Of a stretch of 5,115 nt of DNA, positions 232 to 5,115 are shown one piece after another (position 1 is the stretch's first letter; each line of letters begins with the position of its first letter). The DNA is from Candidatus Rokuibacteriota bacterium (lineage in GTDB: Bacteria; Methylomirabilota; Methylomirabilia; Rokubacteriales; JACPHL01), in assembly GCA_016188625.1 (NCBI GenBank), contig JACPHL010000273.1, forward strand, positions 1 to 5,115. Reading direction: 5' to 3'. The notes below the pieces were generated by a model, which was given only the letters and a program-made list of their open reading frames with translations, ran no database searches and was not told the DNA's origin. Position numbers and translations under genes: made by a program.

Positions 232-609
232 CTACCCCTCGCGCCGGAGCTCGATCGGCCGGCCCGGCGGGGTCTCGCGGGCGGCGCTCTCCCACTCGGC
301 CTTGCGGCGCGCCAGCTCCTCGCCCCCCACGAGCCCTTTCTCCGCCACGAGCCTCTCCAGGGCGGCGAGCCAGTGCCGGTAGTACGTCGTGCCGGGATCG
401 GGGTCGCCGCGCTCCCGGGCCGCCCTGATCTCCTGCGCCAGCCGGTCGGCCCACTCGCGCCAGGTGAAGCAGCCGGCCTCGTGGAGCTTTACCGCCATCG
501 CGAAGGCCTGGGCCTCCCAGGGCTCCCGGAAGACGGGGCCTTCGTCGTCCCGCGGGATGGCGGGGAGGTCGGCGAGGGTTCGCGGGTCGGGGCGCTCAGG
601 CGGGGTCAA
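232..609 (-). CDS. nitrile hydratase accessory/activator protein (P14K type)
   Basis: This 125-residue protein belongs to the small activator family that helps load cobalt into the nitrile hydratase alpha subunit and is itself related to the N-terminal half of the beta subunit. Visible hallmarks are the IPRDDEGPVFREPWEAQAF segment near residues 18-36, the FTWREWADRL helix near 48-57 and YYRHWLAALERLV near 76-88. These match the family pattern of acidic-PVF, W-E-AQAFA and Y..W...LE. The length fits the family (about 120-140). The start is a TTG at 609-607 that overlaps the end of beta by 14 bases. No ATG or GTG lies upstream in frame, and the only later ATG (FAM) would remove the conserved block. 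The ribosome site is weak (GGGA about 12 bases upstream), so coupling to beta translation is likely. The stop is TAG at 234-232. Third gene of the alpha-beta-activator order. Confidence 0.9.
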   Translation of the reverse strand: MTPPERPDPRTLADLPAIPRDDEGPVFREPWEAQAFAMAVKLHEAGCFTWREWADRLAQEIRAARERGDPDPGTTYYRHWLAALERLVAEKGLVGGEELARRKAEWESAARETPPGRPIELRREG

Positions 610-1261
610 GGTAGTCGTCCCAGAGGTCCACGTACACGCGGTCGCGGGGCGAGGCCTCCGGCCCCCACAGCTCCCGCGCGGCGAAGCGGACGCTGTAGAC
701 GTGCTGGGGCTTCCGGCCGAGGCCGGCCGCGTGGGTGTCGGGGAAGATGAAGACCCCGTGGTCGCGGTCCACCACGCCCTGCCGCCCGCGGACGTAGCGG
801 GGGAGGCGGGTGTGGCCCGCCGGGTGGAGGTTCCGCGCCACGACGCGGTCGCCCGCCCTGAACCGGGGCGCCACCGGGTCGTCCAGGCGCGCGGCCCTGC
901 GGTTCCCGAGGAGCCGCGGCACGTCGGCCGCGCGGAGGGCCCCGGGCTCGATGGGCCGAGCCGTCCGGGGCCGTTCGGCGCGGCGGTCCAGCTCCTCCCG
1001 GGAGAGGAAGCCGTGCTCGACCAGGAGCGTCTCGAGCCCCCAGAGCCAGCGCTCGTAGTAGCCGGCCGCCAGGTACTCGTGGGGCGGCATCCGCTCCCGC
1101 GAGTGGCGCGCCATGTCCAGGCTCCACCGGCCCCAGGCCCCCATCGCCAGGGTGAGGGCGAAGGCCCGCCGCTCCCACTCCGCGTGGAACACGGGCTCGT
1201 CCGCCTCGCGCTCGACCGGGCCGAAGCCGTGCATCCCGCCCAGGTCGTGGACGCCGTTCAC
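596..1261 (-). CDS. nthB: nitrile hydratase subunit beta, cobalt type
   Basis: The product is the 221-residue beta chain of nitrile hydratase (nitrile + water to amide), which pairs with alpha to shape the active site at the subunit interface. It starts with the family signature [17 protein letters not shown] helical N-terminal domain follows, with the ..[14 protein letters not shown] and [13 protein letters not shown] segments (about residues 23-83). An SH3-like C-terminal domain begins at about residue 130, with [26 protein letters not shown] and the ending [13 protein letters not shown]. Arg52 and the arginines at 152-160 sit where the family has conserved arginines that hydrogen-bond the oxidised claw cysteines. 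The start is GTG (1261-1259), which overlaps the alpha stop as GTGA. A strong GGGAGG at 1274-1269 with 7-base spacing supports it. The single undivided chain argues against thiocyanate hydrolase, whose beta-like part is split into two subunits. Confidence 0.96.
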
Positions 1262-1920
1262 CCTCGGGCCTCCCGGCGGGCGCGGGCGGGGGGCTGGACC
1301 TTGGCCGTTCCGATCATCGCGTCGCGGGTGATCAGGGCCGCCAGCTCCTCCTCGCTCATCCCCTCGGTCCCGGGCGGACGCTCGGGCAGGACCAGGTAGC
1401 GCAGCTCGGCCGTCGAGTCCCAGACGCGCACCTCGACCTCCTCCGGCAGCTCGAGCCCGAACTCCCTGAGGACGCCGCGCGGGTCGATGACCGCGCGGGA
1501 GCGGTACGGCGCCGACTTGTACCAGACCGGCGGCAGGCCCAGGACGGGCCAGGGGTAGCAGGAGCAGAGCGTGCAGACGACCAGGTTGTGGACGCGGGGC
1601 GTGTTCTCCAGGACGACCATATCCTCGCCCTGCCGCCCGATGTACCCCATCCCGGCGATCGCCTCGGTGGCGTCGGCCAGGAGCCGCCGCTTGAACTCCG
1701 GGTCCACCCAGGCCCGGGCCACCACCCGGGCGCCGTTCCGCGGCCCGACCCGGCTCTCGTAGGTCTCGATCAGCTCGTCCAGCGCCGCCGGGTCCACCAG
1801 CCCCTTCTCGGTGAGGAGCGACTCGAGGGCCTTCACCCGGAGCTGGACGTCGGACAGGGGCGCCCCGTGCGGATGGGCGGTCCCCCCGTGCCCGTGCCCC
1901 TGGGGGTGCTGATCGCTCAT
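1258..1920 (-). CDS. nthA: nitrile hydratase subunit alpha, cobalt type
   Basis: This 220-residue protein is the metal-carrying catalytic subunit. The claw motif [17 protein letters not shown] is at residues 115-131. Cys116, Cys119 and Cys121, together with Ser120 and backbone amides, bind the metal, and Cys119 and Cys121 are expected to be oxidised. Thr117 (CTLCSC rather than CSLCSC) marks the non-corrin cobalt class, as does YPW after the motif. Other family blocks are [18 protein letters not shown] (27-44), [17 protein letters not shown] (58-74), [14 protein letters not shown] (98-112) and [20 protein letters not shown] (166-185). The first 20 residues are rich in His and Gly (seven His, e.g. 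HPQGHGHG), similar to some known Co-type alpha subunits. The ATG at 1920-1918 lies 3 bases after the kinase stop. No clear ribosome site precedes it, so coupled translation is likely. The stop TGA overlaps the beta GTG. Confidence 0.97.
1269..1274 (-). promoter_or_regulatory. Shine-Dalgarno site for nitrile hydratase beta (GTG start)
   Basis: GGGAGG on the - strand, 7 bases before the GTG at 1261, inside the last codons of alpha. It supports the GTG start and the GTGA stop-start overlap. It is the clearest ribosome site among the three nitrile hydratase genes. Confidence 0.7.
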
Positions 1921-1923
1921 GGC

Positions 1924-3486
1924 TCAGGCGAGCAGGACGTGGCGGATCGCGCGCTGCAGCTCGGCCAGGGTGAACGGCTTCACGAGCCCGACGGTGCGGG
2001 TCCGGTCGAGGAAGGTCCGGGCCTCCGGGCTCACCGGCTCCTCGATCAGGAAGATCAGCCGGTCGGCGATGGAGGGGTTGAGGGCGTCCAGCTCCCGGTA
2101 GAGGCGGATCCCCTCGCGGTCCGGGAGCCGGAAGTCGCTCACGATCACGTCGTAGCTGCCGGTCAGGAGCCGCTGGAGCGCCTCGCCCCCGCTCGCCACG
2201 CGCTCGACCCTGTGGCCATCGACGCCCAGCAGCTCCCCGAGCAGGGCGGCGGTCCCGGCGTCGTGCTCGACCACCAGGACCGTCTTCCCCCGGATCGCCG
2301 GCCCCTCGTCCTCCGGCCGTGCCCGCCGCCGCCGCTCCACGAGGACCGCCAGCTCCACGGTGAAGGTCGCGCCCTCGCCGGGGCGGCTCTCGACGCCGAT
2401 CCTCCCGCCGTGGGCCTCGAGGATCCCGCGGGCGATCGCCAGGCCGAGCCCGGTCCCCTCCCCCTCCGGCTTGTTGGTGAAGAACGGGTCGAAGATCCTC
2501 GGGAGGTGCTCGGGCGCGATCCCCGGGCCGTCGTCGGCGATCTCGGCGACCACCTGGCCGGCCGGCTCGTCGTAGCGGGTCGCGACCGTCAGGGTCCCAT
2601 GGCCGTGGGCCCCCCGCATGGCCTGGGCGGCGTTGCGGACGAGGTTGGTGAAGACCTGCTGGAGCTGGTCGGGATCGGCCAGGGTCTCGGGGAGGTCGGG
2701 GTCGAGCTTCCGGACGACCGCGACCTGGCTCCGCTGCAGCTCGAAGGCCTCGAGATCGAGGGTCTCCTCGAGGAGCCGGTTCAGGCTGAGCGGCTGGCGG
2801 CGGTGGGGCGGCCGCTGCCGCGTGAAGCTCAGGAGGTTGCGGACGAGCCGGGCCATCCGCTCGGCCTGCTGCGTGATCCGGTTGACCCGCTCCAGGGTCT
2901 CGGCGGCGAGCGGGGAGCGGCGCAGCAGCTCCGCGGTCCCCAGGATCGCCACCAGGGGGTTCGACAGCTCGTGCGCCAGCCGGGCGATGACCTGCCCGAG
3001 GGCGGCGAGCTTCTCGGTCTGGAGGACCTGCGCGTGGAGCCGGGCGCCCTCGGCGACCTGGGCGGCGAGCTTCTCCCGCTCCGCCTGGAGCCGGCGGTGG
3101 GCGAGCGCCGCCTCCAGGGTCAGGGGGAGCCTGGTGAGGTAGCCCCGGCGGGTGATCAGGTAGTCGTGCGCGCCCAGCCGGAGGCCCTGGACGGCCGTCG
3201 CCTCGTCGGCGATCGCCGCCAGGAGCACCACCGGGGGCGGGGCGGGCGCCGCCCGGAGCCGCTCCAGGAGGGTGAGGGCGCTCCCCTCGCCGAGCCGGCA
3301 GGCGAGGAGCAGCAGATCGAACGGCTCGGTCTCGAGCCGCCGGAGCGAGTCGGCCACGCCGCTCGCCGCCTCGACGGCGAGGTGGGGGGCCCGGCGCCTC
3401 AGCTCCCGGCGCAGCCGCTCCGCGTCCCTCGGTGTGGAGGGGAGGTAGAGGACCCGGAACGACGCGGGGTTCTCGGGCTGGCTCAG
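1924..3486 (-). CDS. hybrid sensor histidine kinase with degenerate N-terminal receiver
   Basis: A soluble-looking 520-residue kinase with no membrane segment. Numbering assumes the CTG start at 3486. Domains in order: (1) receiver-like fold, about residues 11-125, beginning RVLYLPSTPRDAERL. The acidic pair is replaced by PST, Ala62 replaces the phospho-acceptor Asp in FDLLLLACRL, and DYLITRRG lacks the usual Lys. (2) Coiled linker, about 126-160. (3) HisKA domain with phospho-acceptor His172 in LAHELSNPLVAIL. (4) HATPase with N-box QVFTNLVRNAAQAM, G1 DDGPGI, F-box FDPFFTNK and G2 GTGLGLAIA. (5) Intact C-terminal receiver from about 400, with VEHD, Asp451 in DVIVSDFRLPD and Lys503 in LVKPF. 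No DNA-binding output domain is present and no separate regulator lies nearby. A start at GTG 3357 (477 residues) is possible, but it would cut off the first strand and helix of the receiver fold. Stop TGA at 1926-1924, 3 bases before alpha. Confidence 0.92.
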   Translation of the reverse strand: MSQPENPASFRVLYLPSTPRDAERLRRELRRRAPHLAVEAASGVADSLRRLETEPFDLLLLACRLGEGSALTLLERLRAAPAPPPVVLLAAIADEATAVQGLRLGAHDYLITRRGYLTRLPLTLEAALAHRRLQAEREKLAAQVAEGARLHAQVLQTEKLAALGQVIARLAHELSNPLVAILGTAELLRRSPLAAETLERVNRITQQAERMARLVRNLLSFTRQRPPHRRQPLSLNRLLEETLDLEAFELQRSQVAVVRKLDPDLPETLADPDQLQQVFTNLVRNAAQAMRGAHGHGTLTVATRYDEPAGQVVAEIADDGPGIAPEHLPRIFDPFFTNKPEGEGTGLGLAIARGILEAHGGRIGVESRPGEGATFTVELAVLVERRRRARPEDEGPAIRGKTVLVVEHDAGTAALLGELLGVDGHRVERVASGGEALQRLLTGSYDVIVSDFRLPDREGIRLYRELDALNPSIADRLIFLIEEPVSPEARTFLDRTRTVGLVKPFTLAELQRAIRHVLLA

Positions 3487-3491
3487 CGCGC

Positions 3492-3497
3492 CCTCCT
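3492..3497 (-). promoter_or_regulatory. Shine-Dalgarno site deciding a CTG start of the kinase gene
   Basis: On the - strand the bases read AGGAGG, then GCGCG, then CTG (3486-3484). The reading frame carrying the full receiver fold has no ATG, GTG or TTG between its upstream stop (3594-3592) and the GTG at 3357. The CTG with a consensus site at 5-base spacing is the best candidate, and the protein from here reads (M)SQPENPASFRVLYLP. The site is seen directly; its use for a CTG start is inferred. Confidence 0.6.
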
Positions 3498-3580
3498 GCC
3501 GAGGCCTCCGCTCACGGCGGCCAGGACGAGGCCCGCCCGGGAGATGGCCCGGACGCCCCTGGAGAGCCGACCGCGTTCGT

Positions 3581-3596
3581 CGTGAGGGATCTCACG
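3581..3596. repeat. short inverted repeat in the kinase leader
   Basis: CGTGAG-GGAT-CTCACG: 6-base arms around 4 bases. It lies in the predicted leader of the leftward transcript, about 95 bases before the CTG start. It could be a small hairpin or a protein site; its length alone does not exclude chance. Confidence 0.3.
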
Positions 3597-3629
3597 GGTA
3601 AGTCGAAGTCCCCTCAGCCGATCTATCGC

Positions 3630-3659
3630 ATTTAACGATCGAAAGGCGCTCCGAGTCAA
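3630..3659 (-). promoter_or_regulatory. candidate sigma-70-like promoter for the kinase-nitrile hydratase operon
   Basis: On the - strand, TTGACT (3659-3654; 5 of 6 to TTGACA) is followed by an 18-base spacer and TTAAAT (3635-3630; 4 of 6 to TATAAT). Transcription would start near 3623 and leave a leader of about 137 bases before the CTG start. The -10 box is only fair; an alternative, GTTAAA, has a 17-base spacer. The placement in the only AT-rich patch of the region supports it. Confidence 0.45.
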
Positions 3660-3673
3660 GAACGAAGGTTCTT
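3658..3673. repeat. perfect 16-base palindrome, possible operator
   Basis: AAGAAC-GAAG-GTTCTT: 6-base arms around a 4-base centre. The left arm overlaps the last two bases of the leftward -35 box (3654-3659), a usual site for a repressor or activator dimer. An imperfectly co-centred pair, TCGAAAG (3639-3645) and CTTTCGA (3678-3684), flanks it. No regulator gene is in the window to assign it to. Confidence 0.4.
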
Positions 3674-3695
3674 CCCACTTTCGACGGGGCGACGG

Positions 3696-3758
3696 GGCCT
3701 CGCCGCCGGGGGTTCCCGCCGAGCCCGTTGAGCGAGCCGGAACCCCCGGCGGGAGGCC
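3696..3758. repeat. long inverted repeat / hairpin (20-bp stem, one bulge, 22-base loop)
   Basis: Left arm GGCCTC (3696-3701), one unpaired G (3702), then CCGCCGGGGGTTCC (3703-3716). Right arm GGAACCCCCGGCGG (3739-3752) followed directly by GAGGCC (3753-3758). All 20 pairs are Watson-Crick. No T-run follows on either strand, and it lies between two outward-facing promoters, so it does not fit a standard terminator for either gene. It could be a DNA-level regulatory element, a dispersed palindromic repeat, or a remnant of an insertion. Confidence 0.7.
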
Positions 3759-3771
3759 ACATTGAGGCGTT

Positions 3772-3800
3772 TTGACAGCTCCGGCGCTTTTCGCTACCCT
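3772..3800 (+). promoter_or_regulatory. sigma-70-like promoter of the hyuA-like gene, probably leaderless
   Basis: A perfect TTGACA (3772-3777), a 17-base spacer and TACCCT (3795-3800; keeps the key T, A and final T of TATAAT). The ATG follows 9 bases after the -10 box, so transcription should start at or within a few bases of the ATG. The bases before the ATG (CGTGCCATC) contain no Shine-Dalgarno site, which agrees with a leaderless messenger. Confidence 0.7.
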
Positions 3801-3809
3801 CGTGCCATC

Positions 3810-5115
3810 ATGGGCCGCATCGGGGTGGACGTCGGCGGGACCTTCACCGACCTCGTCGCCTGCGACGACGCCGGGCGGACCCTCGCGGCGCTGAAGGTCC
3901 CCACGACCCCGGACGCCCCGGCCCGCGCCGTCCTGGAGGGGCCCCGGGCCCTCGGCCCCGGCCGCGGGGCGATCGCCCACGGGACGACCATCGTCACCAA
4001 CGCCATCGTCGAGGGGCGGGGGGCGGTGACGGCGCTGATCACCACCCGGGGCTTCCGCGACGTCCTGGAGATCGCCCGCCAGAGCCGGGCCGACCTCTAC
4101 CGCCTCGACACCCCCCCGAAGCCGCCCCCCCTCATCCCCCGCCGCCTGCGGTTCGAGGTCACCGAGCGGGTGGCCGCGGACGGCCGGGTCCTCGTCCCCC
4201 TGGCCGAGGCGGAGCTGCCCGCCCTGATCGAGGCGCTCCGGGCGGCTGGGGTGGAGGCCGTCGCCGTCTGCCTCCTCCACAGCTACGCGGCCCCTGGCCA
4301 CGAGACGAGGCTCGCCGAGGCCCTGCGCGGGGCCTTCCCCTACGTCTCGGCTTCCCACGAGATCAACGCCGAGTTCCGCGAGTACGAGCGGACGGCGACC
4401 ACCGCCCTGAACGCCATGGTGATGCCGCTGGCGGACCGCTACCTGGCCGACCTCGAGGCCTCCCTGGCCCGCGAGTCGGCCGGCGGCCCGCTCCGGCTCC
4501 TCCAGTCGAACGGGGCGATGATGTCGGCCGAGGCCGCCCGCCGTCGTCCGCTGGCGATGGCGGTCTCGGGGCCGGCCGGGGGGGTGGCGGCCTCGGCGCA
4601 CCTGGCGCGCTCCCTCGGGCTCCGGCATGCCATCGCCTTCGACATGGGGGGGACGACCACCGACGTCTGCCTCATCGCCGACGGCGTGGCCCAGACCCTC
4701 CCCCAGCGGCGGCTCGGCGGCCATCCGGTCCGGTTTCCCTCGGTCGCCGTGGAGTCGATCGGGGCGGGCGGGGGGTCGCTCATCTGGCTCGACCCGGCCG
4801 GGGCGCTCAGGGTGGGGCCCAGGAGCGCGGGGGCCCGCCCGGGCCCGGCGTGCTACGGGCTCGGCGGCGAGGCGCCGACGGTCACCGATGCCCACCTGGT
4901 CGCCGGCCGGCTCCGGCCGGATGCCATCCTCGGCGGTTCGATCCGGGTCCAGCGCGCCCTCGCGGAGGCGGCGCTCGGGCCGGTCGCAAGCCGGCTCGGG
5001 CTCGGCCTCGCCGAGGCGGCCGCGGGGGCCCTCGAGGTGGCCGACGCGGCGATGCGCCGGGCGATCCGCCTCATCTCGGTCCAGCGCGGCTTCGACCTCC
5101 GCGAGTTCGCCCTCA
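3810..5115 (+). CDS. hyuA: hydantoinase/oxoprolinase family protein, HyuA-like (N-terminal part, partial)
   Basis: The frame opens at ATG 3810 and stays open to the window edge, giving 435 residues of a family usually near 680-700. Members are the ATP-dependent A subunits of N-methylhydantoinase, 5-oxoprolinase and acetone/acetophenone carboxylase-like enzymes, built on an actin-like fold. The N-terminal domain (about 3-175) starts with the phosphate loop IGVDVGGTFTDLV, then HGTTIVTNAIVEGRGA (58-73) and ALITTRGFRDVLEIARQ (75-91). The second domain has EFREYERTATTALNA (188-202), SGPAGGV (253-259), the second phosphate motif FDMGGTTTDVCLI (277-289), ESIGAGGGSL (315-324) and GPRSAGARPGPACYG (336-350). 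All expected nucleotide-binding motifs are intact. A hyuB partner usually follows and is expected to the right. The substrate cannot be told from this part, so the symbol indicates family only. It is divergent from the nitrile hydratase operon and driven by its own TTGACA/TACCCT promoter. Confidence 0.9.
   Translation, partial: MGRIGVDVGGTFTDLVACDDAGRTLAALKVPTTPDAPARAVLEGPRALGPGRGAIAHGTTIVTNAIVEGRGAVTALITTRGFRDVLEIARQSRADLYRLDTPPKPPPLIPRRLRFEVTERVAADGRVLVPLAEAELPALIEALRAAGVEAVAVCLLHSYAAPGHETRLAEALRGAFPYVSASHEINAEFREYERTATTALNAMVMPLADRYLADLEASLARESAGGPLRLLQSNGAMMSAEAARRRPLAMAVSGPAGGVAASAHLARSLGLRHAIAFDMGGTTTDVCLIADGVAQTLPQRRLGGHPVRFPSVAVESIGAGGGSLIWLDPAGALRVGPRSAGARPGPACYGLGGEAPTVTDAHLVAGRLRPDAILGGSIRVQRALAEAALGPVASRLGLGLAEAAAGALEVADAAMRRAIRLISVQRGFDLREFAL

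Follow-up and report, generated by a model that had tools for sequence, protein, structure and literature searches.

Known operons for Co-type nitrile hydratase carry the genes for the alpha subunit (nthA), the beta subunit (nthB) and an activator, often together with an amidase or a cobalt transporter. The window analyzed here is the whole of a 5,115-nt contig (C90) from a 2.6-Mb metagenome-assembled genome (84% complete, 344 contigs), and its closest nthA homologues are found in Candidatus Rokubacteria. It shares with the known operons the alpha-beta-accessory order, the CTLCSC motif and matches above cut-off to three NCBIfam equivalog models, but instead has a hybrid histidine kinase gene immediately upstream of nthA, and neither an amidase nor a cobalt transporter gene was found within the 5.1-kb contig. 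The minus-strand order is hybrid kinase (3486-1924), alpha (1920-1258), beta (1261-596) and accessory protein (609-232), and the features to which the text refers are as follows.

3810..5115, plus strand: hyuA, a divergent hydantoinase/oxoprolinase A gene (Pfam) that continues past the contig end
3492..3497, minus strand: Shine-Dalgarno sequence AGGAGG, 5 nt upstream of the kinase CTG (duplex -10.8 kcal/mol)
1924..3486, minus strand: hybrid histidine kinase, 520 aa, CTG start, pseudo-REC - HisKA - HATPase_c - REC (Pfam, NCBIfam)
3112..3465, minus strand: N-terminal pseudo-receiver domain (alignments with 13 and 8 homologues; AlphaFold model)
2812..3000, minus strand: HisKA domain, H-box HELSNP with His172 (Pfam)
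2350..2676, minus strand: HATPase_c domain, N and G boxes intact (Pfam)
1942..2280, minus strand: C-terminal receiver, Asp451 and Lys503 kept, DD pocket reading EH (Pfam, alignment)
1918..1926, minus strand: junction TGA GCC ATG from kinase stop to alpha start, 3-nt gap, no Shine-Dalgarno sequence
1258..1920, minus strand: nitrile hydratase alpha (nthA), 220 aa, His-rich N terminus (TIGR01323, 315.5 bits, cut-off 249.85)
1558..1575, minus strand: CTLCSC metal-binding motif of the Co type, alpha residues 116-121
1269-1274, minus strand: Shine-Dalgarno sequence GGGAGG of beta (duplex -10.3 kcal/mol)
596..1261, minus strand: nitrile hydratase beta (nthB), GTG start overlapping the alpha stop as GTGA (TIGR03888, 266.3 bits, cut-off 152.2)
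232..609, minus strand: nitrile hydratase accessory protein of the activator type, TTG start overlapping beta (TIGR03889, 98.5 bits, cut-off 46)

Judged by its gene order and family matches, the enzyme operon appears to be an ordinary Co-type nitrile hydratase operon; the corresponding motif of Fe-type enzymes is CSLCSC. Thiocyanate hydrolase was considered as an identity for alpha and rejected, the gamma model scoring 190.5 bits, under its cut-off of 291.45. The His-rich N-terminal extension of alpha (1861-1920), which recurs in nthA of many loci (for example MTHDHDHDHHHHDHDHDHG in L202), is a possible metal-handling tail. A second group of Rokubacteria nthA genes (L105-L110), about 63-66% identical, is arranged as beta-alpha-accessory rather than alpha-beta-accessory.

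A promoter for the kinase operon would sit in the interval between the kinase and the divergent hyuA gene (3487-3809). A scan for sigma-70 promoters and intrinsic terminators returned nothing, a result that is uninformative at 75% GC and with a scanner that may be ill suited to the promoters of this phylum. The minus-strand ORF at 3483-4895, which matches no family and lies antisense to hyuA, was set aside as a high-GC ghost. Synteny of nthA with hyuA or with the window's solute-binding-protein fragment was seen in none of the relatives except L148, where a hyuA homologue (45%) lies about 5 kb from nthA.

The preliminary description of this DNA reported a 520-residue hybrid kinase ending 3 bases before the alpha ATG on the same strand, and the reading frames, the junction (TGA GCC ATG, 1926-1918) and the gene identities all bear this out. 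Pfam matches the protein to HisKA (E = 4.9e-15), to HATPase_c (1.9e-29) and twice to Response_reg, and the defining features of a hybrid histidine kinase are present, namely the H-box, the N and G boxes, and the Asp and Lys of the terminal receiver. Apart from the pseudo-receiver, Pfam recognized no sensor domain in the kinase, nor any DNA-binding domain, and the 5.1-kb contig, which ends there, contains no response regulator or DNA-binding output for it. The first ATG, GTG or TTG codon of the frame is the GTG at 3357; it lies inside the first receiver domain and was rejected as the start, as it would truncate that domain. The start is instead likely to be the CTG at 3486, where alignments place the expected beginning of the domain, and this codon may be a sequencing error for GTG. 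CTG starts are usually weak, and so the kinase may be made in small amounts, as may any alpha whose translation is tied to it.

In the first receiver the acid pocket is gone, the phosphorylated Asp is replaced by Ala (LLACRL) and the Lys by Thr, residues that are kept in nearly all homologues. The AlphaFold model retains the (beta-alpha)5 order in this domain at a pLDDT of about 80, although the relative placement of domains in the model is unreliable (pTM 0.40). The domain is thus a pseudo-receiver, with its fold kept and its catalytic residues replaced, rather than a phosphorylatable receiver. Pseudo-receivers are common, and the control that they exert is poorly understood (PMC12632262). 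Full-length REC-kinase-REC homologues from the same bacterial order are 37-43% identical to the window kinase, and the best matches of its first receiver (36-42%) reside in kinases of 800-1120 aa in which a pair of N-terminal receivers is followed by a long stretch leading up to the kinase core. Such tandem-REC hybrid kinases of Rokubacteria (REC-REC-linker/sensor-HisKA-HATPase-REC) are 41-43% identical to the window kinase, and up to 42% identical over its first receiver. By comparison, the window kinase is shorter, lacking one receiver and the receiver-to-core region, and its remaining N-terminal receiver has no catalytic residues. On these alignments, the kinase is an ordinary member of the Rokubacteria hybrid-kinase family, a short form with a decayed first receiver. 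None of the 13 full-length REC-kinase-REC homologues and 8 tandem-REC kinases lies near nthA.

The earlier observation that alpha lacks a ribosome site of its own also holds: the best duplex between the 16S tail and the 20 nt upstream of alpha is -1.9 kcal/mol, compared with -10.8 kcal/mol for the kinase and -10.3 kcal/mol for beta. A Shine-Dalgarno sequence precedes nthA in most of 19 Rokubacteria relatives, at -8.2 kcal/mol in the closest of them (G003) and at -9.5 to -11.8 kcal/mol in several; a clear one is also missing at several other Rokubacteria nthA starts (for example, L145 and L159). Same-strand pairs spaced by -8 to +6 nt are indicative of termination-reinitiation (PMC10666635). 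A spacing of +3 nt is rarer than one of -4 or -1, and at +2 nt reinitiation was down by 5-70% in constructs of three E. coli pairs (PMC10666635). The kinase and alpha are co-directional, their +3 nt gap falls inside the indicative range and alpha has no Shine-Dalgarno sequence; on these grounds, it is plausible that the two genes are co-transcribed and that some ribosomes reinitiate from stop to start at alpha. An mRNA hairpin masking the alpha start was considered as a coupling device and rejected, the predicted structure being weaker than that of shuffled sequences (z 2.21).

Whether the arrangement reflects a dedicated regulatory link was addressed by surveying nthA neighborhoods. Of 99 genomes searched, nearly all from the same order, 50 contain nthA, and the window genome is the sole member of its family among them. 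No kinase adjoins nthA at any of 39 loci from 38 other Rokubacteria genomes; next to the closest alpha (G003, 85% identical), the upstream gene, about 80 nt away, is 3-hydroxyisobutyrate-dehydrogenase-like rather than a kinase. A profile built from Rokubacteria kinases was further applied to 226 nthA loci, of which 182 are distinct and 167 include 1.4 kb or more of upstream sequence; they come from Rokubacteria, Alpha-, Beta- and Gammaproteobacteria, Acidobacteria, Actinomycetota and others. Among the 182 distinct loci, a same-strand kinase abuts nthA only in the window and in L202, and five other kinases lie farther off. Counting lineages with an adjoining same-strand kinase, as the preliminary description had proposed, therefore gives two, and their kinases are unrelated. 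Within the loci surveyed, the window's pairing of kinase and nthA is confined to one lineage of Rokubacteria, and a conserved regulatory module in that group is ruled out. The linkage that dedicated two-component regulation would lead one to expect is likewise not conserved (0/39 other loci), and the suggestion that the operon senses its own state, or is under dedicated control, is unsupported. The preliminary description had named absence of the kinase beside nthA in related genomes as grounds for refutation, and such absence is what all 39 of the other Rokubacteria loci display.

Such a frequency can be compared with chance. The survey loci total about 1.78 Mb, in which the five non-abutting kinases that this profile detects amount to about 0.3% of genes if a gene is taken to span 1 kb; kinase density in Rokubacteria is apparently higher. 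If one third of nthA genes have a same-strand neighbor within 30 nt, about 0.2 to 2 abutting kinases are expected by chance per 182 loci. Two abutting lineages, one of which is the reason the search was made, thus call for no special explanation.

Tight junctions upstream of nthA are, moreover, common, and the partner varies. In five Rokubacteria (L150, L153, L155, L156, L158) the nthA start overlaps the stop of the upstream gene by 4 nt (ATGA/GTGA), and this gene encodes an SLT lytic transglycosylase in L156, by Pfam, and in L150, L153 and L155, by shared C-terminal sequence. In SAR324, nthA lies 9 nt after an ABC transporter gene. In a Burkholderiaceae genome bin it directly follows HupE/UreJ (0 nt), and in two other Betaproteobacteria it follows HupE/UreJ by 6 nt. 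Upstream partners other than HupE/UreJ have no evident link to nitriles. Since nthA is so often tightly joined to unrelated upstream genes, a tight junction is weak evidence for a functional link. A HupE/UreJ-type permease directly before nthA (0-6 nt) was noted in the betaproteobacterial loci L009, L012, L023 and L034, the upstream gene of L034 being assigned from a junction near-identical to that of L023. HupE/UreJ is plausibly a cobalt or nickel permease, and its likely role here is cobalt supply.

The explanation that accounts well for these observations, and that we consider probable, is that, in a single lineage, an ordinary nitrile hydratase operon came to lie directly after a hybrid-kinase gene of the Rokubacteria type, as a chance neighbor with probable translational coupling. 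The chance-neighbor explanation, which the preliminary description had left open, is now the better one. Under it, a promoter ahead of the kinase would drive all four genes, giving a joint transcript in favor of which the scan's failure to find a terminator-like site was counted. Ribosomes finishing the kinase would restart at the alpha ATG, such that alpha output partly tracks kinase translation, and beta would be translated from its own strong Shine-Dalgarno sequence. The kinase would have no necessary role in nitrile metabolism, providing transcript and ribosomes much as lytic transglycosylase or permease genes may do in other lineages. The proposal of translational coupling therefore stands as plausible, but the regulatory meaning attached to it is unsupported. 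Besides the uncommon +3 nt spacing, the following points count against this explanation: the kinase gene may contain an internal alpha promoter of a kind that the scanner would miss in this phylum, and a kinase translated weakly from a CTG codon would be a poor source of ribosomes for making an enzyme subunit. Such an internal promoter underlies a distinctly unlikely alternative, namely that the genes are neighbors without real coupling, with alpha transcribed from a promoter of its own within the kinase gene and translated from a start independent of a Shine-Dalgarno sequence. The Rokubacteria nthA starts that also lack a clear one are consistent with this, as is the weak predicted RNA structure around the alpha start, which would ease such initiation; however, same-strand genes just 3 nt apart and without a terminator between them normally share a transcript, and elsewhere in the window strong Shine-Dalgarno sequences are used, by beta and by the kinase. 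That assembly or binning fused two genomic pieces is highly improbable. The contig of a metagenome-assembled genome in 344 pieces is only 5,115 nt long, and this genome is the only one of its family among those searched, but the 3-nt join coincides exactly with a gene boundary and leaves both frames unbroken, and GC and GC3 (0.985 and 0.968) match on its two sides, which argues against a chimera; alpha is also closest to Rokubacteria homologues.

It is conceivable, though unlikely, that the genes form a functional module, in which a cytosolic kinase would use its pseudo-receiver or a partner protein to detect conditions inside the cell (metal, amide or nitrogen status) and would control its own operon by phosphorelay to an unlinked regulator. 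The catalytic boxes of the kinase are intact and the C-terminal receiver retains Asp and Lys. In addition, kinases of a different kind adjoin nthA in one alphaproteobacterial genus, where L202/L278 (G306) have DegP, a CopR-like regulator, a CopS-like HAMP kinase and a Co-type nthA in a row, with about 12 nt from kinase stop to nthA. The arrangement is kept in 5/10 species of the genus (L202/L278, L279-L282), and so operons for this metal enzyme can keep a kinase in front of them. Against such a module stand its lack of conservation in Rokubacteria, the absence of a DNA-binding output or response regulator from the window, and the unrelated architectures of the window and CopS-like kinases. DegP-regulator-kinase blocks also exist without nthA, and in the alphaproteobacterial case, too, nthA may therefore have been inserted behind a module that was already there. 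There is accordingly no support for the window kinase acting as a sensor for the operon or controlling it, which would need relay to a regulator elsewhere. The more specific idea, that a kinase with a pseudo-receiver as its only recognized input heads a cobalt nitrile hydratase operon and feeds back on it, is very unlikely. If it were true, nitrile hydratase would, counting the CopS-like case, have come under two-component control at least two times in evolution. The count thus answers the question of the kinase and nthA, within the loci surveyed, in favor of chance adjacency: the gene neighborhood is real but private to a lineage, with no evidence for dedicated regulation.

How unusual the locus is can be judged against what has been described. 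No histidine kinase in a nitrile hydratase operon was found in the titles and abstracts consulted, or by term match in a Rhodococcus genome paper. The preliminary description had called a kinase as first gene unfamiliar; it is indeed rare, but not unique, given the kinase that abuts nthA in the alphaproteobacterial genus. Compared with gene pairs known for termination-reinitiation (PMC10666635, PMC6728339), the kinase and alpha are alike in their short same-strand distance and in a downstream gene with no Shine-Dalgarno sequence. They differ in having a +3 nt gap rather than an overlap, in that the partners are not subunits of one complex, and in being known from sequence. The CopR/CopS-like pair of G306 resembles the window in that a kinase abuts a Co-type nthA on the same strand. 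Unlike the window's, the G306 kinase is of the membrane HAMP type, has its own response regulator and an upstream DegP gene, is unrelated in architecture and is kept in 5/10 species. Its regulator and kinase best match heavy-metal subfamily models, though under their cut-offs, and a natural guess is that the signal is cobalt or another metal, with control of nthA being putative. That genus is the better candidate for two-component control of nitrile hydratase, an industrially used enzyme.
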